From positions 1 to 64,000 of the IMG/VR virus record IMGVR_UViG_3300042473_001265: a DNA stretch of 64,000 nt; one strand, 5' to 3'. Positions 46,560 to 64,000 of the stretch are shown piece after piece (positions within the stretch are counted from its first letter, which is position 1; each line of letters starts with the position of its first letter). This stretch comes from a virus. The notes under the pieces were generated by a model. The model saw nothing but the letters and a program-made list of their open reading frames with translations, made no database searches and was not told the DNA's origin. Both the position numbers and the translations under genes were made by a program.

Positions 46560-47174
46560 ATGCAAATCAGCACTGCACAACTGCAACAAATCATACCCAG
46601 CAATCCATATGTTTCGCAATGGACCGAAGCACTAAACAAAATCTTACCCGACTACGGCATAGATACTCCGCAGCGAGTCAGCGGATTCTTAGCACAATGC
46701 GCCCATGAAAGTGCAGGGTTTACTGCGCTGAGTGAAAATTTAAACTATCGCAAAGAATCTCTACGCCGTGTTTTTGCCAAATATTTCACCAGTGATTCAG
46801 TGGCCGAACAGTATGCACACAAAGAATCCATGATTGCCAACCGTGTGTATGCCAACAGAATGGGCAATGGTGACGAAGCATCTGGTGACGGATATCGCTA
46901 TTGCGGTCGTGGCCTAATTCAGCTCACAGGCAAAGACAACTATCAAGCATTTGCCGAAAGTGTAGAAATGGCTGTGGAAGATGTGCCAGCATATCTGGCC
47001 ACATTTGAAGGTGCAGTGCAAAGTGCCTGTTGGTTCTGGGAAACAAATAATCTAAACCAATGGGCTGACAAGGGCGATATTGTTACACTGACCAAACGCA
47101 TCAACGGCGGCACCATTGGTCTAGAAGATCGCATCAAGCACTACGAACACGCACTGCATGTACTAGGACTATAA
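46560..47174 (+). CDS. Endolysin, glycoside hydrolase family 19
   Basis: 204 residues. FLAQCAHESAGFTALSENLN supplies the catalytic Glu of the GH19 chitinase-like lysozymes, followed by NRVYANRMGNGDEASGDGYR and CGRGLIQLTGKDNYQ, all diagnostic. No signal peptide, so it needs the holin for release. Cleaves the glycan strands of peptidoglycan. First gene of a compact lysis cassette. Confidence 0.9.
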   Translation: MQISTAQLQQIIPSNPYVSQWTEALNKILPDYGIDTPQRVSGFLAQCAHESAGFTALSENLNYRKESLRRVFAKYFTSDSVAEQYAHKESMIANRVYANRMGNGDEASGDGYRYCGRGLIQLTGKDNYQAFAESVEMAVEDVPAYLATFEGAVQSACWFWETNNLNQWADKGDIVTLTKRINGGTIGLEDRIKHYEHALHVLGL

Positions 47175-47175
47175 C

Positions 47176-47658
47176 ATGTGGTTACTGCATTTCTTTTCAG
47201 ACAGTTTTTTACAGTTCGTAGTCAATGCAGTATTAATAACTGGCGCCGTTAGCACAGTTTTATTCTGTTTCTTTCTCAATAAGATTTTACAATTTTTTCC
47301 GCCATTGGCGCCATACTACAAAGCATTGCAAATTGGCAGTATAGTTGTGCTGTTGGCTGGCGTGTACTTTAAAGGTGGCTACACTACTGAAATGATCTGG
47401 CGTGACAAGGTAAAAGAAGTAGAAGCCAAGTTAGCTGCGGCCGAAGCTGAAAGCAAAAAAGAAACTGTAAAAATTGTAGAACGAGTTGTCAAGAAAACCG
47501 AAGTTGTTCAGCGGCGTGGTCAAGATGTTGTTCAATATATTGATCGAGAAGTTGTCAAGTATGATACAAAATTTTTACCTGGTGGTGTATGTGAAATACC
47601 TAAAGAATTTGTCAAAGCACACAATGACTCTGCTACTCCGGTTGAGGCAAAGAAATGA
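47176..47658 (+). CDS. Inner-membrane spanin (i-spanin) or membrane partner
   Basis: 160 residues. Two hydrophobic segments (about 9-34 and 50-67), then a long charged coiled-coil (KVKEVEAKLAAAEAESKKET to VQYIDREVV). It overlaps by 4 bases the gene for a small outer-membrane lipoprotein, the classic two-gene spanin layout. i-spanins usually have one membrane span; the extra one is a difference worth noting. Confidence 0.7.
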   Translation: MWLLHFFSDSFLQFVVNAVLITGAVSTVLFCFFLNKILQFFPPLAPYYKALQIGSIVVLLAGVYFKGGYTTEMIWRDKVKEVEAKLAAAEAESKKETVKIVERVVKKTEVVQRRGQDVVQYIDREVVKYDTKFLPGGVCEIPKEFVKAHNDSATPVEAKK

Positions 47659-47924
47659 AATATCTATTATTACTATCAGTAGTACTATTACAGGCCTGTG
47701 GCACAACAGTGCCAGTCTCTGCAAAATTTCCCGACGCCCCGGGCGCGATTGCAACACAAACATGCCCTGCATTACAGCAACTACCGCAGGATCCCAAACT
47801 AAGCGAAGTATCTAAAACAATCACCATCAACTATACCACATACTATGAATGTGCAGTCAAAGTCGATGCCTGGAATGATTGGTATAAAATACAAAAAAAT
47901 ATTTTTGAAAAGGCAGCAAAATGA
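47655..47924 (+). CDS. Outer-membrane lipoprotein, o-spanin
   Basis: 89 residues with lipobox LLQAC (Cys15) and a short periplasmic part containing Pro and aromatic residues. A tiny lipoprotein coupled to a coiled-coil inner-membrane protein identifies an o-spanin; the pair fuses inner and outer membranes to finish lysis of a Gram-negative cell. ATGA overlap with the holin. Confidence 0.8.
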   Translation: MKYLLLLSVVLLQACGTTVPVSAKFPDAPGAIATQTCPALQQLPQDPKLSEVSKTITINYTTYYECAVKVDAWNDWYKIQKNIFEKAAK

Positions 47925-48418
47925 GTGAAGAACTAAAAAGCGCAAGCGAAACAAAAAAAGAAGACTGGATGAACTCAAAATGGCGTCCAGCCATGGGTTG
48001 GATGTACATGCTGACCTGTGTGACTGACTTTGTAATATTCCCAATTCTGTGGAGCCTGCTGCAGACCTTACTCAAACAACCTGTTACTCAGTGGAGTCCA
48101 TTGACACTGCAAGGTGCAGGACTATTTCACCTGGCCATGGGCGCGGTGCTAGGGGTTGCTGCATATGGTCGTACACAAGAAAAACTTGGTGGAGCCAACA
48201 ATGGCGGAATACAAACACCACCAACAGGCTTTTCGCCTGGGCTTACAACAACCAGCACACCATCAACAGGATTTGGTGCCACTACTGGGGGCTTTGGCCC
48301 TCATGCACCCAGCACAAGTTTTGCACCAGCCCCTAGCTGGGGTACAACTCCGGTCTCAACAGCACCATCACAGACATTTGGATCTGGGCCGGCGCCTGCA
48401 CAAAAACCTGAACTTTAA
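47921..48418 (+). CDS. Holin (3TM type)
   Basis: 165 residues. NSKWRPAMGWMYMLTCVTDF and a second hydrophobic block (GAGLFHLAMGAVLGVAAYGR) match the holin family first described with gene-transfer agents. The C-terminal 80 residues are low-complexity Gly/Thr/Pro/Ser and longer than usual. The position between the spanins and a small membrane peptide supports a holin. Confidence 0.85.
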   Translation: MSEELKSASETKKEDWMNSKWRPAMGWMYMLTCVTDFVIFPILWSLLQTLLKQPVTQWSPLTLQGAGLFHLAMGAVLGVAAYGRTQEKLGGANNGGIQTPPTGFSPGLTTTSTPSTGFGATTGGFGPHAPSTSFAPAPSWGTTPVSTAPSQTFGSGPAPAQKPEL

Positions 48419-53575: not shown

Positions 53576-54352
53576 ATGAATTATCTTGTAATCTACCCTG
53601 GTCGTTTTCATCCATTTCACCGCGGTCATATGGCCAGTTATGATTGGCTGACTAAAAAGTTTGGAGAAAATAGCGTGTATATTGCCACCAGCAATGTGCA
53701 GGCACCCATCACCAGTCCGTTCAATTACAGTGACAAAGTGATGATGATGACCAAGTTGGGTGTTCCGGCTAGCCACATTGCCAATGTGAAGAATCCTTAT
53801 CAAGCAACAGAAATCACTGGTAATCTGTCCGACGACGAAAAAAACAAAACAGCATTGGTATTTGCAGTCAGTGCCAAAGACGCTGAACGCTTCAACTTTG
53901 CTCCAAAAAAAGACGGCACGCCAGGTTATTTGCAACCACTGCCCAAGACTGGCAAAGGCGTAAAGCCCATGACCAAACACGGTTATGTGGCCATCACTCC
54001 CACCATCAACTTCCAAGTAAACGGAGTAGATGCCAACAGTGCCAGTGAAATACGCAGCATGTATATCAAAGGCAATGACCATGACAAGGATCAGGTCATT
54101 GCTGATCTGTACGGACAACCAGATCCGGCAATTCGAGCAATGTTTGATAAAAAGTTAGGCATTGGTGAGCAGATACAACAGCAGATCAACGAAGCACGCC
54201 GCAGTGTTGGCGCTGGCAGACAGTTTGGTAAAACTCAGCTTGCAGAATGGATGCAAAATGTGTTACAATTAGAAAAACAAGCAAACAGTATTGATCTTGA
54301 TTTTTCCCACATCAACCCAGATTATATAGACGAAAAAACTTATAATCGTTAA
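53576..54352 (+). CDS. NMN-adenylyltransferase-like nucleotidylyltransferase
   Basis: 258 residues. NYLVIYPGRFHPFHRGHMA has the GRF.P.H.GH signature of nicotinamide-nucleotide and related adenylyltransferases. SASEIRSMY may be the distal ISGT.IR-like motif. A C-terminal helical tail of about 70 residues is extra (VGAGRQFGKTQLAEWMQ). If it makes NAD+ or deamido-NAD+, it pairs with NadE (19176). T4-like cyanophages carry similar genes. Late expression and a virion role cannot be excluded. Confidence 0.65.
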   Translation: MNYLVIYPGRFHPFHRGHMASYDWLTKKFGENSVYIATSNVQAPITSPFNYSDKVMMMTKLGVPASHIANVKNPYQATEITGNLSDDEKNKTALVFAVSAKDAERFNFAPKKDGTPGYLQPLPKTGKGVKPMTKHGYVAITPTINFQVNGVDANSASEIRSMYIKGNDHDKDQVIADLYGQPDPAIRAMFDKKLGIGEQIQQQINEARRSVGAGRQFGKTQLAEWMQNVLQLEKQANSIDLDFSHINPDYIDEKTYNR

Positions 54353-56225: not shown

Positions 56226-56233
56226 GCTAAATA
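56226..56233 (+). promoter_or_regulatory. T4-like late promoter GCTAAATA, near-leaderless
   Basis: Predicted start 56239, 2 bases before ATG 56241; it drives the multi-enzyme gene and the coupled genes to the window edge. Confidence 0.65.
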
Positions 56234-56240
56234 TTACATA

Positions 56241-59200
56241 ATGAATATTCTTGAACTTGATTCCTACAATTTGGCCGACGCTGTTAAGTTTAACCAGCGT
56301 TTGAATCCGCGTCTGTGGGACAACAACGAACAGTTACGGCCCGAAGTGCATGATCATTTGCTGCAAATAGCTGATGATTTCCGCGAGTTTTTAGGAGTAA
56401 GCGGATACGATCTCAAAGATATAACCATCAGCGGATCCAATGCTGCGTACACATACACTCCCAATTCTGACATCGATCTACACCTGGTGGTTGATTTGCC
56501 CGAAGCTGACAACAGCGAAGTGTATCGCGAACTGTTTGATGCTAAAAAGTTTCAATACAACCAACAGCACAACATCACCATTGGCAGTCATCCTGTGGAA
56601 CTGTATGTACAAGATGCTAATAAAACACATGTGAGTCAAGGCATTTACAGTGTGTTGAACAATCAATGGATTGATGTGCCCAAGCGTAGAGATGCTGGAG
56701 TAGATGACATATCCACTCGCAGCAAATACGAAGATTTGGCTGCACGAATTGATAGTGCTGTTGCATCTGGTGATCATGATGACATGGCCAAATTGATGAG
56801 CAAAATCAAAGCCATGCGACAAGCCGGACTGAATCAGCATGGCGAGTTTGGTGCAGATAATCTAGCATTCAAAATGCTGCGCAACCAAGGCGCTATCAAA
56901 CGATTGATTGACGCTAGAAACGCTGCCAGAGACCGGGAGTTGAGCCTGCGTGAGCGTGAAATAGTTGTTAAACGACCATTCACATACGGATTCAAAACTG
57001 AAGATGTCAGCAGCAATCCCAGTGGTGTGAGCCCCGAAACAAAAATGTTCTTAAGCGAAAAGCCCGCAGCCAGTGTCGTTGACATTGTGTCATCGTTCAT
57101 TGATTACTGTGTGGAGCAGTTGGGCATTGAGCAACCGCCTCAAGTGAAGTTCAAGAAGGATCCGCAGTGGAGCGCTCGTAACAAAACTTTTGGCCGTTAC
57201 AATTCTGACCATAATCTATTGGAAGTGAGCCTAGCTGGACGCCATGTGATGGACATATTGCGCACAGTGGCACATGAACTCACCCACACCAGACAACACG
57301 AAATAGAAACAGTGCCAGACACTGCCGGCGCCACTGGTAGCCGATGGGAAAATCAAGCCAACGCCCAGGCCGGTGTGCTGATGCGTGACTATGCCGAACA
57401 GCATCCGGAGTTTTTCAACGATGACGGGTTAGAAGAAGGTATCCGGGACAAGTTAGCCACGGCTGCATTGGCAGCATGTGTTGCTGGTTCACCAGGCTGC
57501 GCCACAACCACTCCGATCAACACTGGCGCTGACGCTGTGAAGGCTGCTGTGCGAGCCAGCCAATTGACTCGTGCTGGGTTGGAACACGGAGCAAAACAAG
57601 AACTTAAGAATGTGCTGCGCCGTGGTGCAAATGCCAATGAAAGTTCTGGTTATATTCCAACAAAAAAACAAGCTAGAGATCCACGCTTTAGCATGGCTCT
57701 TACAAAAGATGTACAACCTGGTGCCACAGGTCGAGAAGCCAACAAATTAAACCTTCGCACAGACACGCAAGGCAAGCCGGCACTGTTGATGAAGACTGCC
57801 AACCTGCGTGAAGATCGCATGCAGCGGCAACGGACTGACCCCACATACAATGTGGCTGAAGATGACTTGTCCGAAGTTGATCGCCGGGCTGCGTTAAAAG
57901 CGTTGGGTGCAGGCGCAATGGCTGCTGCGGTACCGGGCGTGGCCAAAGCCGGACCTTTTGTGGATGTTGCTGCCCTAGGAAACACCAATCCTGACCAGTT
58001 CAACAAAGTATGGGTGCCCAGGTACAAAGAACTCACTACTCGATGCCAAGACATCCTGCGCCAATTGATTGCAGCAGCAGGCCCCAAATGGGCGCCGCTG
58101 TTGAAAGGCACTACCATTCGTGTAGTCTCAAGTGAAAATTATGCACAGGCCAGTGCAATTTCGCGCACCATCACTATTGATCTTTCGGTGTTCTGGGATG
58201 CTCCAGATGCGGCCTTGGCATTTACCATAGCACATGAGCTGGGACACATTGCCCTGGAACATGCCACTGGTACCGATGATGCGTCAGCGGACTACAAGAC
58301 TCAAGTACGAGTGGCTGCACAGTATCGGCAAGGCGAACTAGACGCAGACGAGTTCGCAGTGCGCCTGTGCAAGACACTGGGCTACAACAAGGCCGAAGTA
58401 TTCAAATTCATTGCCAAGAACGAAGCAGAATTGCAACTGTTGGATGTTCTGACACAGTCACCTACCAGCAGTCACCCCAGCCAAAAGACACGAATTGAAC
58501 GAGCCAGGATGAATGGGTTTCAGTTGAGCCGGGGCGGCATCGAACAGATGAATGTGTTGAAGCAACACCTGGCCGAAGATGACACTGAACACCGTGATAT
58601 AGTCAACCGCCTGAGTCGTGAACTGAAACTGTATGAAGATCAGGACCTGTTTGAAATCAACATGAGTCCCACAAATCTAAAGAAACTGGCAGCACAAACA
58701 GGCGCCATGGCTGGCATGGAATTTGAGATGATTGTGCCCGGTGCTGATGGCGGCGACGATGCTGCGGATATGGAACCCGACTACGACGCCGACGAAAATG
58801 TCATGAGCATCGAAGATGCAGCGCAGTTCTTTTTTGACGGTGACTTCAACGGTCGAAGAGACATTCAACGCCTGCGTGACAGCATGAGCGAAGATTATCA
58901 GACATGGCTAGGCGATGCATGGATGGAGTATTTTGAAACCTACAAAAACACCATTGTGTTTAGATACGGCAAAGAAAATTGGTCAGAGGCAGACATTGCT
59001 GAAATATTGGGCCTGGACGAAGCCGCAGCAGAAGCGTTGGAAAATCGTGGAGCAAGCCCTGAAGATTACATGGACGCTGCCGAAAAAGTCATTGAAGACG
59101 GTTTGGATCCCTGGCTGAATGATGCGCAGGAAGATGCACAAGAAGACTATTACAATGATGATCATGAAGAGGATTGGCTGAGAAGTGAAGGCATTCGCTC

Positions 59201-60584
59201 AATGAGCGATGTTTCGAGTCAGTACGATATTTCCTGGCCCTATTGGAGCACTCCTGGCAGCGAAGGCGCCAGCATTGAAGAAGTTGCTGATGAATTCCGT
59301 GAGGCCATTGGTCGCAAGGTAAACTGGTCTGCCAACTATCATGGTGGCCGCCGCGAACCCGATGCTTATGTGGTTGAGCCTGACGGCAGCCTGGAACCAG
59401 ATGACAGCAACGATTCTGGACTGGAGTTTGTGAGCCCGCCCTTGCCTGTTGACGACATGATTAGTGATCTAAACAAGGTCCGGGCCTGGGCCAAACAACG
59501 AGGCTGCTACACCAATGATTCAACCGGCCTGCACATCAATGTGAGTGTGCCGGGCTTTGACAACGACAAACTGGACTATGTTAAACTAGCTCTGCTGCTG
59601 GGTGACCAGTATGTGCTGGATCAATTTGGACGCACCGGCAACACCTATGCCAAAAGCGCCATGGGCATGATCAAAGAGCGAATCGCTCAGCGTCCCGAAG
59701 ATGCTGCTGCCATGTTGCAAAAAATGAAAACAGGCCTGGGCGAACTGGCCACCAAAGTTATACACAGCGGCACGACCAGCAAGTATACCAGTATCAATAC
59801 CAAGACTGGATACATTGAGTTTCGCAGTCCCGGCGGCGATTGGCTAAATGAAAACTTTGACAAGATTGAAACCACGCTGTTGAGATTTGTAGTGGCATTA
59901 GATGCTGCCATGGATCCGGCAAAGTATCGCGACGAATACCTGAAGAAGCTGTACACTGTACTCAAGCCTAAAGACCAAAATGATACCTTGAGTTATTTTG
60001 CTAAATTTGCTGCTGGTGAATTGCCCAAGGCTGCACTAAAGAGTTTTATCAAACAAGCACAACTGGAACGCAACAAGGTCAAAGATACCTATGCTGAACT
60101 CACGCCCGGACAAAGCAACTACAAGATCTATCAAATCTCTGATGGTAGAACAGTGGGCACATTCTATGCTGCTGATCAAGCACAGGCCAATGCTGAATTC
60201 ACTGACTGGTTGATGAGTCCCGAAGCTGGCGGCAGAGATGACTTTAGATACGCACCAATTGACACACCAATTCAAGGTCCTGTGGCCACAACACCTGTGC
60301 CCGGCGTCATTGACATTGAGCCAGATGTAGAACAGAACTTTGTTCCTGGTAGCACCCTGGATCTGCAACGCCAACGTCAACAAGCAGCACAGCAATCTGC
60401 CGCTAGTGGAACATTTAGAGGCACATGGGCAATCAAAGACAGCCAAGGCAATACACTACACACCTTCAGCGGCATTGGCAATTCACAAGCAGATGCCAAC
60501 AGAGTTGCAGCAGGATGGCTGGCTCGTGCAGGATACCAAGATGGTATCGAAGTTGCGGTTGTGCCAGTCATGGAGCCGTCGTGA
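56241..60584 (+). CDS. 1447-residue multi-enzyme protein: nucleotidyltransferase, two metalloprotease motifs, amidoligase
   Basis: Start ATG 56241 fits the late promoter; the longer frame has no ribosome site. Order: residues 1-250 nucleotidyltransferase (GS at 65-66, D77-x-D79); 320-395 zinc-protease motif HELTH (345-349); 397-425 LEE followed by a hydrophobic segment ending SPGC (417-420); 543-570 LSE, twin Arg (548-549), Ala-rich core, AKA (568-570), together like a Tat signal; 590-830 M48-like protease, HELGH (665-669) and E699..D703; 825-1200 amidoligase-like (GMEFEM, GLEFVSPPLP, GLHINVSVPG at 1096-1105, YIEFRSPGGDW at 1191-1201); 1300-1447 two small repeat-like domains. Probably packaged and cut by the prohead protease. 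Confidence 0.8.
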   Translation: MNILELDSYNLADAVKFNQRLNPRLWDNNEQLRPEVHDHLLQIADDFREFLGVSGYDLKDITISGSNAAYTYTPNSDIDLHLVVDLPEADNSEVYRELFDAKKFQYNQQHNITIGSHPVELYVQDANKTHVSQGIYSVLNNQWIDVPKRRDAGVDDISTRSKYEDLAARIDSAVASGDHDDMAKLMSKIKAMRQAGLNQHGEFGADNLAFKMLRNQGAIKRLIDARNAARDRELSLREREIVVKRPFTYGFKTEDVSSNPSGVSPETKMFLSEKPAASVVDIVSSFIDYCVEQLGIEQPPQVKFKKDPQWSARNKTFGRYNSDHNLLEVSLAGRHVMDILRTVAHELTHTRQHEIETVPDTAGATGSRWENQANAQAGVLMRDYAEQHPEFFNDDGLEEGIRDKLATAALAACVAGSPGCATTTPINTGADAVKAAVRASQLTRAGLEHGAKQELKNVLRRGANANESSGYIPTKKQARDPRFSMALTKDVQPGATGREANKLNLRTDTQGKPALLMKTANLREDRMQRQRTDPTYNVAEDDLSEVDRRAALKALGAGAMAAAVPGVAKAGPFVDVAALGNTNPDQFNKVWVPRYKELTTRCQDILRQLIAAAGPKWAPLLKGTTIRVVSSENYAQASAISRTITIDLSVFWDAPDAALAFTIAHELGHIALEHATGTDDASADYKTQVRVAAQYRQGELDADEFAVRLCKTLGYNKAEVFKFIAKNEAELQLLDVLTQSPTSSHPSQKTRIERARMNGFQLSRGGIEQMNVLKQHLAEDDTEHRDIVNRLSRELKLYEDQDLFEINMSPTNLKKLAAQTGAMAGMEFEMIVPGADGGDDAADMEPDYDADENVMSIEDAAQFFFDGDFNGRRDIQRLRDSMSEDYQTWLGDAWMEYFETYKNTIVFRYGKENWSEADIAEILGLDEAAAEALENRGASPEDYMDAAEKVIEDGLDPWLNDAQEDAQEDYYNDDHEEDWLRSEGIRSMSDVSSQYDISWPYWSTPGSEGASIEEVADEFREAIGRKVNWSANYHGGRREPDAYVVEPDGSLEPDDSNDSGLEFVSPPLPVDDMISDLNKVRAWAKQRGCYTNDSTGLHINVSVPGFDNDKLDYVKLALLLGDQYVLDQFGRTGNTYAKSAMGMIKERIAQRPEDAAAMLQKMKTGLGELATKVIHSGTTSKYTSINTKTGYIEFRSPGGDWLNENFDKIETTLLRFVVALDAAMDPAKYRDEYLKKLYTVLKPKDQNDTLSYFAKFAAGELPKAALKSFIKQAQLERNKVKDTYAELTPGQSNYKIYQISDGRTVGTFYAADQAQANAEFTDWLMSPEAGGRDDFRYAPIDTPIQGPVATTPVPGVIDIEPDVEQNFVPGSTLDLQRQRQQAAQQSAASGTFRGTWAIKDSQGNTLHTFSGIGNSQADANRVAAGWLARAGYQDGIEVAVVPVMEPS

Positions 60585-61468
60585 GAGCACTAGAATTTTT
60601 ACACGAAGACGAACCAGCAAGAATCAAGATTGGTGGTGCTGAAGCAGCAGCCCGGGCACGAACCTGGATTGAAAAGGTGTATGCCCGTTATCCGCAAACC
60701 ATGCAGAACAATCATGTGATGACCTGGGGCTCGGGAGATGACCAACAGTTTGCAATGTTTGAATTAACTCCTAGCTTCAGCCGGCGTGGCGCAGTTGAAG
60801 TCAAATGGTTTCAAGCGTATCCGCTACGGTCTGGGGTGGGCAGTCGTGCTATGAAAGAACTGCAAGCCATGGCCCGAGAAGATGGAATCAGCCTTACATT
60901 ATTCCCCTGGGACAAAGGACAAGTAAGCCAAAGTAAACTGACCAAATTCTACCGAGGACAAGGCTTTTCTCCAACTGTCAAAGGTGGCAAAGCAATGCAA
61001 TGGAGCCCCGAGCTGGCGGAAGAACTCAGAGTTGATGTACCCAACGAAGAATGGCTTGACGATGCTATTGCGTATGCCAAGCAAAAAAGTCCCGACCGCA
61101 ACGGGTTGCCCTACATGGGCAAGACCACTGCTACTGTTAGACCTGAACCAATGGTATCCATGGATATACTCAAGCGACTACCGGGCATGCGAAACGAACA
61201 GCAAAATGTACGACAAGCGGATCTAGCAGCCATTATGAAAATAATGAAAGACACTGGCAAATTGCCACTGCATAGTTTTACTAATGAAGAATACAAGCCT
61301 TTTATCAATGTGGCCTACGATGGCAGTGCTTGGGTCAACGAAGGTAATCATCGTATCATGGCTGCTGCTGCCCTGGGTTGGAAAGAACTGCCTGTGCAAA
61401 TCAGTTACTTTGATGGCGGCGAACGAGTTGAATCTGGACCCATGTACCCAGGAAAGATTGGACTATGA
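60581..61468 (+). CDS. GNAT acetyltransferase plus ParB-like domain, capsid-targeting-like N-terminus
   Basis: 295 residues from GTG 60581, overlapping the previous stop. Begins (V/M)RALEFLHE-DEP, L7-x-E9. Residues about 85-140 (WFQAYPLRSGVGSRAMKEL, LTKFYRGQGF) form a GNAT acetyl-CoA fold with the R/Q-x-x-G-x-G-like loop. Residues about 245-285 (INVAYDGSAWVNEGNHRIMA) resemble a ParB/sulfiredoxin-like loop (DG...EGNHR). Domain pairing is unusual. Coupled into the late operon. Confidence 0.7.
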   Translation: MRALEFLHEDEPARIKIGGAEAAARARTWIEKVYARYPQTMQNNHVMTWGSGDDQQFAMFELTPSFSRRGAVEVKWFQAYPLRSGVGSRAMKELQAMAREDGISLTLFPWDKGQVSQSKLTKFYRGQGFSPTVKGGKAMQWSPELAEELRVDVPNEEWLDDAIAYAKQKSPDRNGLPYMGKTTATVRPEPMVSMDILKRLPGMRNEQQNVRQADLAAIMKIMKDTGKLPLHSFTNEEYKPFINVAYDGSAWVNEGNHRIMAAAALGWKELPVQISYFDGGERVESGPMYPGKIGL

Positions 61469-61923
61469 GAGCCAGTGAACTTTTAAACGAAGTAGTTGAT
61501 CTTGACACAGCATTTCCACTAAAGTGGGATCAGCAGTTTGCAGCTCAAGGTGAAATTCATGCGTCGGCCACAGATGCTGACGGCAGAGAAATTGGCATAT
61601 CGTTTACTCCTGCAGGCAATGGTGAAGTAACTGATGTAGCATTTACTCGCGGCGGAACACATGAAATGACTGGGCGTGGTGATGCAGGACGAGTAATGGC
61701 CACTGTGATCAACGCTATCAACACCTATGCAAAAAAATATAAACCACCGTATCTAGCGTTCAGTGCCAAGTCTGGTGGCGGCAGATCCAGTGCATACACC
61801 GCAATGATTCGGCGCCATGCACAGGGATATGAACTAGTGCCCACCGATAAATACCCAGCGGCCTTGAACAACTATCTTGAGTTCATTGGCAGCGATCAAC
61901 CATTTGTGCTGGCAAGAACATGA
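61465..61923 (+). CDS. Small GNAT-like virion protein
   Basis: 152 residues. N-terminus MRASELLNE-VVDLD with L7-x-E9. The core (DVAFTRGGTHEMTGRGDAGR, then YLAFSAKSGGGRSSAYTAMI) is a phage family that looks like a shortened acetyltransferase fold. Coupled by 4-base overlaps on both sides. Confidence 0.6.
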   Translation: MRASELLNEVVDLDTAFPLKWDQQFAAQGEIHASATDADGREIGISFTPAGNGEVTDVAFTRGGTHEMTGRGDAGRVMATVINAINTYAKKYKPPYLAFSAKSGGGRSSAYTAMIRRHAQGYELVPTDKYPAALNNYLEFIGSDQPFVLART

Positions 61924-62705
61924 AAACAAAAGAATTTACCACAGAAGGCTGGAGCCAAAAATACAAAAAAAGTATCAATTGCAGTCATCCCAAGGGCTTT
62001 AGTCAGCGGGCCCATTGCGCTGGAAAGAAGAAGCAAAACGAAAGCGCAGAAATGGAAATGGTGTGTGAAATGTGTGGCCTGTGTGAAACACACGGCGATC
62101 ATTCACAGGACAACTTGGATGAAGCATGCTGGGACACACACAAACAAGTTGGTATGAAGAAAAAAAGCAACAAAATGGTTCCCAACTGTGTGCCTAAAAA
62201 CGAAGAAAAGGAGACCGCAATGACAGAAAATCAAGATGAATTGGCAAGAATACTGGAACTCAGCACAGGAGTAAGTGCAACAGATCGCGTGGAACTAAAC
62301 GAAGAGTTTGATCTAATAGAGTCTATCATTGACAGTCTTGCAGATCGCAATGGGGTAGATGCAGAGACAATATGGGAAGACCTCGACTCACTGACAGATG
62401 ATGAGTTGTATGTGTTTGCAGTGACTACGCCAATCATGGAAGATTGGCAAAAGGCCAACAAAAAGGATCGTACTGCCGGCATGAGTCAGAAAGCTGTCAA
62501 CGCTTATCGCAGAGAAAATCCCGGGTCCAAACTAAAGACTGCTGTAACTACCAAGCCCAGCAAATTAAAGAAAGGTTCGAAGGCGTCGAAACGTCGTAAG
62601 AGCTATTGCAGCCGCAGCCGTGGTCAAATGAAAATGCACAGCATCAGCTGTGCTAAAACTCCGGACAAGGCCATATGCAAAGCACGCCGTAGATGGAACT
62701 GCTGA
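61920..62705 (+). CDS. Cys-rich basic virion-type protein
   Basis: 261 residues. Begins MKTKEFTTE-GWSQ (E9). Contains two Cys-rich basic blocks: INCSHPKGFSQRAHCAGKKK near the start and YCSRSRGQMKMHSISCAKTP near the end, with a central Cys/His group (VCEMCGLCETHGDHSQDN). Blocks of this kind are scattered through large T4-like phage genomes; DNA or metal binding is likely from composition. Confidence 0.65.
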   Translation: MKTKEFTTEGWSQKYKKSINCSHPKGFSQRAHCAGKKKQNESAEMEMVCEMCGLCETHGDHSQDNLDEACWDTHKQVGMKKKSNKMVPNCVPKNEEKETAMTENQDELARILELSTGVSATDRVELNEEFDLIESIIDSLADRNGVDAETIWEDLDSLTDDELYVFAVTTPIMEDWQKANKKDRTAGMSQKAVNAYRRENPGSKLKTAVTTKPSKLKKGSKASKRRKSYCSRSRGQMKMHSISCAKTPDKAICKARRRWNC

Positions 62706-62706
62706 C

Positions 62707-62994
62707 ATGAGACTGTATGAATTTGCATTCGGTTCCGGCGTGGACGTCAATGAAAATCTTCGCGACTGGTTCAAAGATAAATGGGTACGCTTTGGTCCCG
62801 ATGGTAAGATACGCGGCGACTGTGCTAGAGGGTCAGAATCTGAAGGCAAGCCCAAGTGTTTGCCACAGTCCAAAGCACATGCACTGGGCAAGAAAGGTCG
62901 TGCAAGTGCAGCAGCCAGAAAACGCAGACAAGATCCCGACGCCAATCGTTCAGGCCCAGCAATAAATGTCAGTACAAAAGGAAAGAAAAAATGA
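62707..62994 (+). CDS. Small basic Cys-containing virion-type protein
   Basis: 95 residues from ATG 62707. WVRFGPDGKIRGDCARG then KPKCLPQSKAHALGKKGRAS and a Lys/Arg-rich tail. Starts MRLYEFAFG, matching the first six residues of the capsid-targeting-like pattern but lacking E9. Recurrent block in T4-like marine phages. Overlaps the next gene (ATGA). Confidence 0.65.
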   Translation: MRLYEFAFGSGVDVNENLRDWFKDKWVRFGPDGKIRGDCARGSESEGKPKCLPQSKAHALGKKGRASAAARKRRQDPDANRSGPAINVSTKGKKK

Positions 62995-64000
62995 ACATAA
63001 ATGATATCATTACAGAATCACAACAAAAATGTCCGCACTGTGGTGGACCTGTGGTGGAATATTCAGAACTAGGCGAGGGCAAAAAAGATGCCTGCTACTA
63101 CAAGGTCAAGGCATCGGCCAAAGTATGGCCCAGTGCCTATGCATCCGGTCGATTAGTTCAGTGTCGCAAAAAAGGTGCTGCCAACTATGGCAACAAGTCA
63201 GAAGGTGTGGCGGAAGGCTTATTAAACGAATTCGCACCAGGTGGAGCTGAAGGTGCTGGACCATATGCATATGGTATAGCTCTAAAAGAAATGGCAAAAT
63301 TGTATGCTGAAGGTGAGTTTGATTTAGTTGACGTCAGCGGCATGGACACAACAAGTCAAAACCAAAGTGATGCCGAAGAAATAAACAGCGTAGCAGATGC
63401 TTTTATCAATCGTGGAATGGAAGCTGGTAGAGAAGCATACCGCATGGTTGACACCATGGTGCAAGAGGACATGGATGAATACCTTGACGGCCAAGGATTC
63501 AATGTTGATGCTGATATCCATGTTGCATACAAAAATGACGTTGACCGTTATAATGCTTCTCCAGAGGGTCAGGCAGGAATCGCTGCGCATGAGGCTCGAC
63601 GAGAAGCCTGGCGGCGGTCAAAGCCGGCCAACCAAGTGATAATACAAGCAATTGATCCCAAAGGCAATTTGCCCATTGACAACACTCGCGTAGTGTTTGA
63701 TGCTAGAGAGTTTAACCTTGAGCCTGGCTTTCTTAAATACTCAATTGAACAAGATATTAAAAAGATCAAAAAGACAGCACCCGGTAGCTTGATTCAAATC
63801 ACCTTGGGCGGCAAACCAACTGATATTCAGGGTATTCTTGACCAATATAAACAGCTCAGCAAGGGGCCACACGATGTGGCGGAAAACTTTGCTGATGGGC
63901 GAAATCCCCAAGACAAGGGCGATGCCAAGCGTCACGGTATCAACACCAAGGCCAGTGTAAGCAGTCTACGCAAAACTGCCAAGCAAGGTGGACGCAAGGG
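62991..64000 (+). CDS. Virion-type protein with Cys motif, 3' end beyond right edge
   Basis: At least 336 residues, open to base 64000. MNINDIITE-SQQKCPHCGG (I7-x-E9) with a CPHCGG zinc-ribbon half-site. KDACYYKVKASAKVWPSAYA followed by VQCRKKGAANYGNK is a block common in T4-like marine phage proteins. The last visible part (GDAKRHGINTKASVSSLRKT then AKQGGRKG) is another recurrent C-terminal block. Function unknown; probably packaged. Confidence 0.7.
   Translation, partial: MNINDIITESQQKCPHCGGPVVEYSELGEGKKDACYYKVKASAKVWPSAYASGRLVQCRKKGAANYGNKSEGVAEGLLNEFAPGGAEGAGPYAYGIALKEMAKLYAEGEFDLVDVSGMDTTSQNQSDAEEINSVADAFINRGMEAGREAYRMVDTMVQEDMDEYLDGQGFNVDADIHVAYKNDVDRYNASPEGQAGIAAHEARREAWRRSKPANQVIIQAIDPKGNLPIDNTRVVFDAREFNLEPGFLKYSIEQDIKKIKKTAPGSLIQITLGGKPTDIQGILDQYKQLSKGPHDVAENFADGRNPQDKGDAKRHGINTKASVSSLRKTAKQGGRK

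Follow-up and report, generated by a model that had tools for sequence, protein, structure and literature searches.

Why does a single phage protein carry signal-peptide-like segments in the middle of its chain, each directly behind the triplet L-x-E? The question is raised by P0001, a protein of 1447 residues that is encoded, with an ATG start, by the open reading frame at 56241–60584 on the plus strand of the window, that is, of the first 64,000 positions of the IMG/VR record IMGVR_UViG_3300042473_001265 (340,172 bases). An earlier note on this DNA had read P0001 as a polyprotein and had seen in L-x-E the consensus of the T4 prohead protease; in agreement with this, gp21 of T4 is described as cutting after L/I-x-E (excerpts of PMC9026906). 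From the sequence comparisons given below we consider it quite likely that, as the capsid matures, export signals become exposed on proteins that are later ejected. In the environment, many large T4-like phages seem to load their heads with enzyme chains that the head protease cuts, exactly at places where the cuts would lay bare hidden export tags. It is fairly probable that this amounts to a widespread two-step delivery, in which silent chains are packed, the capsid protease exposes twin-arginine translocation (Tat) or general secretion (Sec) signals, and the host exports the enzymes to its envelope, where they would act on peptidoglycan, outer-membrane assembly or TonB/Tol and might, for example, block superinfection.

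In many long proteins of the loci that we fetched, LxE is followed by Tat-like or GWK-type segments. A first scan for Ala/Gly-rich cores within 12 residues gave a weak signal (9/25), partly because this window missed the spacing of the MNRR modules. To avoid selecting on Glu, we ran through IMG/VR a DNA pattern that encodes RRGFLxGxGAAA and no Glu. It yielded 71 distinct Tat modules: in 67 a Glu stands 2–4 residues ahead of RR, in 62 there is [LIVMF]-x-E, and 61 either lie over 45 residues from the earliest possible start or belong to reading frames open at the contig end. The Sec-like class, with the consensus E/GWKxxLxxAALAG...AxA (slashes mark predicted cuts), was searched in IMG/VR with the pattern GWxxxLxxAALxG. 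Here Glu directly precedes GW in 68/74 scored matches and [LIVMF]xE in 67/74, and the six matches without Glu look like chance matches. AxA follows the signal in 51/62 cases of the Tat class and 59/67 of the GWK class, and TIGR01409 recognises 48 of 127 module segments. Since the Tat modules sit among 38 unrelated upstream and 29 unrelated downstream clusters, the conserved unit is the pair of LxE and signal. A tblastn search of INPHARED did not find the module in any isolated phage.

Could common L-x-E triplets have met Ala-rich stretches by chance? The triplet is frequent, and the 17 [LI]xE sites of P0001 compare with 11.9 expected from composition, a total not above chance. The sites stand out by position, not by number: they lie at borders between parts that are individual genes in relatives, and a signal-like segment follows at a fixed short spacing, as it does in more than 100 distinct modules found with a query without Glu. 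The unconditional IMG/VR scan, together with the cellular control described next, led us to reject coincidence, to which we assign next to no probability.

Another reading holds that the domains were captured from hosts with their bacterial signal peptides, which would now be functionless, the LxE being incidental. M48, GH19 and TonB are indeed cellular families. However, among 26 Tat signals from Pseudomonadota genomes, picked by TIGR01409, a comparable Glu occurs in 5 and LxE in 2, against 62/71 in the phage modules (Fisher 3e-13), and the module precedes many unrelated domains. A bacterial donor of the M48 domain was also rejected, as only distant local matches were obtained (best 30–47%) and no close bacterial relative. 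This reading is thus very improbable. Internal translation starts, yielding signal-bearing proteins directly and making the protease unneeded, are suggested by a Met just before RR in some Tat modules (DMNRRGFLK). Yet a start codon preceded by a Shine-Dalgarno-like sequence occurs in 0/127 modules, most of which have no start codon there at all, and P0001 reads GTT GAT CGC CGG after E545; we rejected internal starts as extremely improbable.

For P0001 itself, the sites described in the earlier note are exactly placed: L397-E-E399 before SPGC (417–420), and L543-S-E545 before V546-D-R-R549 and AKA (568–570). Its observation that both L-x-E sites precede signal-like segments is confirmed, and the pattern reaches far beyond this one protein. 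Segment 2 we regard as a good member of the LxE+Tat module family, segment 1 as a weak and degenerate member of the GWK class. In segment 2 (VDRRAALK) RR and LK are present and the Phe of the Tat consensus is missing; a hydrophobic core and then AxA follow (ALGAGAMAAAVPGVAKA). The sister protein L028 reads IDRRGVLK and keeps LSE/IDRRGVLKAIGAGAVATAVPGVAQA, the linker before LSE having diverged. The genome contains one further Tat module, DLSRRGFLQGLGAAAAGAVGVGAAGSAQA (DLSRRGFLQ, G000:69714), in a 1466-residue protein of the same gene cluster, and this module scores 20.7 bits, above the TIGR01409 cut-off. A loose Tat pattern gave only these two matches over the 340 kb of the genome, both in the gene cluster of P0001. 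At the place of segment 1, L028 has VAEGWRKQQQ without a hydrophobic core, and segment 1 may therefore be decaying. A lipoprotein reading of SPGC420 was rejected, as the strict lipobox is absent and no family emerged when we scanned for LxE combined with a lipobox.

The domain behind segment 2 has an intact M48 zinc site, with H120, E121, H124 and E154 (numbering of alignment A3) invariant in eight relatives. Its nearest solved structures by sequence and fold are 3c37 and the periplasmic BepA (E 0.0004–0.003; fold E 0.003), and the fold comparison shows modest similarity to BepA. In NCBIfam scoring of the P0001 fragment the LoiP model reached 14.5 bits against a cut-off of 365, and the BepA model did not match.

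What stands behind and before the signals also bears on their function. Pfam domains behind them are GH19 lysozyme (8), HTH_23 (3), TonB_2 (2), M48 (2) and LysM (1), and in the 290 residues before them CTP_transf (8), the RNA polymerase-binding SutA (3), DnaJ (2) and an acetyltransferase (GNAT). The contrast of envelope-type domains behind with cytosolic ones before gives a Fisher value of 5e-6, the members being partly related. GH19 serves as a control: in one locus collection LxE plus signal is present in 15/15 copies in packaged-type chains and 0/15 ordinary endolysins, the protein class being assigned on inspection of the same table as the count by regular expression, and an automatic expression for capsid-targeting N-termini gave 13/16 versus 2/14 for the GH19 proteins (p 7e-4). 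The ordinary endolysins include that of the window, which has no signal. In L133 P0001-type N-terminal and SprT-like domains are followed by GH19 behind LEEGWRSALAGAAAAGAM, where P0001 has M48, and signal and M48 are paired in five different contexts.

These distributions have to be set against the reading that the hydrophobic segments are membrane-active parts for assembly or ejection, such as an anchor of the prohead core or a device for the crossing of protein or DNA. T4 proheads assemble at the inner membrane, and short hydrophobic helices are able to insert. But an anchor needs no twin arginines, short n-region, AxA end or recognition by TIGR01409, and the segments separate envelope-type from cytosolic domains and occur with GH19 solely in packaged-type proteins; we regard this reading as unlikely. 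Alternatively, the signals could act in the producing cell, some chains being cleaved ahead of packaging or outside it, with late export of the enzymes, for instance for lysis, which would suit GH19 lysozyme as the commonest recognised cargo. However, the same loci have ordinary endolysins (46560–47174 in the window) and a lipoprotein-like gene close by, M48 and TonB/TolA-type cargo have no known role in lysis, and the prohead protease is thought to be active inside proheads (excerpts of PMC9026906). Such a use in the producing cell is distinctly unlikely.

Among the cargo, TonB/TolA C-terminal domains stand behind LxE+Tat signals in L086:4723–8781, L163 and L165; once exported, such soluble copies might act as competitors of the host's TonB or Tol and block receptors. 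SutA domains, NMNAT-like cytidylyltransferases and acetyltransferases recur as cassettes before the signals (alignment A2), which suggests injected cytosolic effectors, one of them acting on the host RNA polymerase. Behind the commonest GWK signal, 49/67 downstream sequences fall in one cluster; the domain at this place in L219:4184–4810 (residues 94–156) matches virion structural proteins of Escherichia coli jumbo phages.

The genome of P0001 encodes a gp21-type S77 prohead protease (E 9e-25), whose gene, at about 197.4–197.9 kb of G000:C1, adjoins the scaffold and gp23 genes. Its major capsid protein (MCP) has L-K-E at residues 40–42, near the start of T4 mature gp23*, and LxE is found at the equivalent place in 10 further related MCPs. 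For T4 it is reported that the first 10 residues of IPIII are enough for packaging and that changing the final Glu to Asp inhibits processing (excerpts of PMC9026906). Residues 20–237 of P0001 have a homologue in cyanophage S-CREM2, ORF156, which was detected as a virion protein by mass spectrometry with 6 unique peptides; the same virion holds ORF160 and the cytidylyltransferase ORF154 (PMC10665884). ORF160 is built of cassettes related to those of P0001. Because this homologue of its N-terminal domain is in the virion, we infer that P0001 is packaged as well. In some genes a targeting peptide passes directly into the signal, as in MRAQEFVNE/DLTRRGFLRG (L177), MRIHEIINE/DISRRGFLKG (L172) and, in the M48 protein of L030, NVRANEFISE/AISRRDLLKG.

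The sequence after the predicted MCP cut (LKE/NASAGSTASGNIATLNR; L123) recurs after LxE in small proteins of capsid-targeting type (MRAQEFIKE/NASVGATSSGSVATVAMPVG). The recurrence comprises L123 (MCP), L003:4551–4748, L221:11641–11985, L139, L319, L187 and L074, and the small proteins look as if they mimic the N-arm of the capsid protein.

Capsid maturation, ejection and the Tat or Sec machinery of the host together seem to us the most economical account, and it is supported by its computable predictions, all of which were positive: the gp21-family protease, capsid-targeting-like N-termini, LxE coupled to both signal types, the conserved AxA, envelope-type cargo and the GH19 control. P0001 would be a late head-packaged polyprotein which its N-terminal sequence brings into the prohead core, as in T4 internal proteins. 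The gp21-type protease would cleave the junctions behind L-x-E and release individual enzymes within the capsid; the cut after E545 would leave the M48 protease with the Tat-like signal as its new N-terminus, and the cut after E399 a fragment starting with the weaker Sec-like segment. As long as the chain is uncut, the signals would be internal and silent, so that export from the producing cell would not precede packaging. Once the enzyme had been ejected together with the DNA into a new cell, its exposed signal would send it via Tat (or Sec) to the periplasm or envelope. The sequences themselves establish the structure of the modules, their conservation and coupling to LxE, the domains they join and the protease gene; the steps from packaging to export are inferred. 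Each element is known by itself (T4 internal proteins, gp21 cleavage, Tat signals); in the literature searched we found neither their combination nor signal peptides linked to the prohead protease or to capsid targeting. If the account is true, a signal that is inactive while the phage is being made would bring phage enzymes into the host periplasm at infection, before phage gene expression. Numerous uncharacterised phage polyproteins would thereby gain a function, it could be predicted which ejected proteins work in the envelope, and LxE plus signal would be a portable tag.

Several observations weigh against this account. Segment 2 is below the TIGR01409 threshold (12.5 versus 16.7 bits). 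Segment 1 is degenerate and has no clear AxA at the end of its core, and its LAAC and SPGC both depart from the strict lipobox pattern. P3 is Val in about one-third of the modules, which lies outside the L/I consensus of T4, and the MCP sites have Leu. As counts, the modules lack phylogenetic independence, falling into 29 downstream clusters. HTH_23-like and HD-like segments, without obvious envelope functions, also stand behind Tat modules. The M48 proteins of L033, L034 and L035 start in a capsid-targeting-like manner (MKIIEILE) and have no export signal, the same enzyme with an apparently different destination. Finally, the P0001 homologues L301, L008 and L010 have no signals at all.

Among the closest known systems are T4 IPI–IPIII and Alt, whose capsid targeting sequences are cut by gp21. 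As in P0001, the targeting sequence is short, stands at the N-terminus and ends in (L/I)-x-E, and the phage has an S77 protease; the proteins are late, packaged in the head and ejected, as is predicted for P0001. In Alt the C-terminus is cut as well. The T4 internal proteins, however, are short and single, and none is reported to carry an export signal behind the cut, whereas the P0001 type, known here from its sequence, consists of domain chains with predicted internal cuts and signals. Ejected head proteins of giant phages of the phiKZ/SPN3US type undergo massive Glu-specific cleavage at several sites per protein, but the phiKZ motif is S/A-x-E, and the excerpts of both sources do not mention that the N-termini created by cleavage carry Tat- or Sec-like signals (PMC9026906, PMC7411985). 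Bacterial Tat signals (TIGR01409/PF10518) share the RRxFLK-type motif, the weakly hydrophobic Ala/Gly-rich core and AxA; they normally stand at the protein start, whereas the phage modules are internal behind a protease site and cryptic until the predicted cleavage. Periplasmic M48 metalloproteases of the BepA/LoiP type share the HExxH zinc site, but the P0001 domain has low similarity to them, lacks a TPR domain and belongs to a phage-specific sequence family. S-CREM2 ORF156 and ORF160, virion-detected relatives of the N-terminal domain and cassettes (PMC10665884), are single short proteins, and no LxE+signal module was present among the S-CREM2 proteins examined.

Of the enzymes that had been claimed for P0001, two exceed their Pfam cut-offs, Peptidase_M48 (33.5 versus 20.3 bits) and Amidoligase_2 (residues 1009–1200, 33.7 versus 22 bits, E 5e-8); the nucleotidyltransferase (NTP_transf_2, 18.1 versus 21 bits, E 0.0036) and the SprT-like zinc domain (17.0 versus 25.6 bits, E 0.0056) remain below theirs. 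Both HExxH motifs were confirmed (Table 1). In IMG/VR relatives the domains are separate genes, with the L-x-E sites of P0001 at the domain junctions, and we take P0001 to be a chain of formerly separate genes. At residues 3–5, homologues of the N-terminal domain have [IL]xE with almost no exceptions (MNILE, MNINE, MNITE, MNIHE, MDLKE); in P0001 the N-terminal peptide thus ends as in T4-type packaged proteins, but is just 5 residues long. The SprT-like domain is a gene of its own in L012 and L016–L023, with proteins starting MRANQFITE/S where P0001 has FLSE/K. Stand-alone M48 proteins (L030, L033, L034) end with HLA at the very point where P0001 continues HLA-E (777–779), and stand-alone amidoligases start MRALEFLNE/IAM, MRYQEIKKIEEDQDLFE/IKM or MRFTEFGLITEMLLNE/VNM, compared with DLFE/INM at 802–808 of P0001.

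Table 1. Features of P0001 and its surroundings (positions in the window)
Feature	Positions	Strand	Remarks
TAAATA, T4-late-promoter-like	56228..56233	+	7 nt 5' of P0001 ATG; consensus resemblance alone
I-L-E, residues 3–5	56247..56255	+	predicted first cut; [IL]xE in nearly all homologues
Nucleotidyltransferase-like domain, residues 6–238	56256..56954	+	ends in LRE 236–238
LSE 271–273	57051..57059	+	junction 5' of first zinc-protease domain; aligned relatives KQILE, KQFLE, KMFLE
SprT-like HExxH domain, residues 274–396	57060..57428	+	HELTH 345–349
LEE 397–399	57429..57437	+	predicted cut; position confirmed
Signal-like segment 1, residues 400–421	57438..57503	+	degenerate E/GWK-class member; best relative E 0.0006
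SGYIP linker cassette, residues 468–521	57642..57803	+	equivalent place in L008, L010, L011
LSE 543–545	57867..57875	+	predicted cut; LSE/IDRR kept in L028 despite diverged linker before
Tat-like signal (segment 2), residues 546–570	57876..57950	+	VDRRAALKALGAGAMAAAVPGVAKA/GPF; member of module family, preceded by LSE
M48-family metalloprotease domain	57951..58577	+	HELGH 665–669; C-terminal boundary LAE 777–779
LAE 777–779	58569..58577	+	predicted cut at M48 domain end; alignment A3
LFE 803–805	58647..58655	+	predicted cut 5' of amidoligase; starts of stand-alone relatives
Amidoligase_2 domain and C-terminal tail, residues 806–1447	58656..60581	+	Pfam
Four neighbour genes	60581..62994	+	capsid-targeting-like N-termini VRALEFLHE, MRASELLNE, MKTKEFTTE, MRLYEFAFG
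Next gene, MNINDIITE...	62991..64000	+	extends past window end

The TAAATA upstream of the ATG is as would be expected for a T4-like late gene; in the window this hexamer occurs 22 times on the plus strand versus 11 times on the minus strand. The starts of the downstream genes, among them also MRAAEFVKE, resemble the capsid targeting sequences known from T4; their endings include LHE9, LNE9, ITE9 and VKE9. Upstream of P0001, a cytidylyltransferase/NMNAT-like gene at 53576–54352 may be compared with the virion cytidylyltransferase ORF154 of S-CREM2. The region 46560–48418 is an ordinary lysis region with the signal-less GH19 endolysin, a small membrane protein and a lipoprotein-like sequence (MKYLLLLSVVLLQACG).

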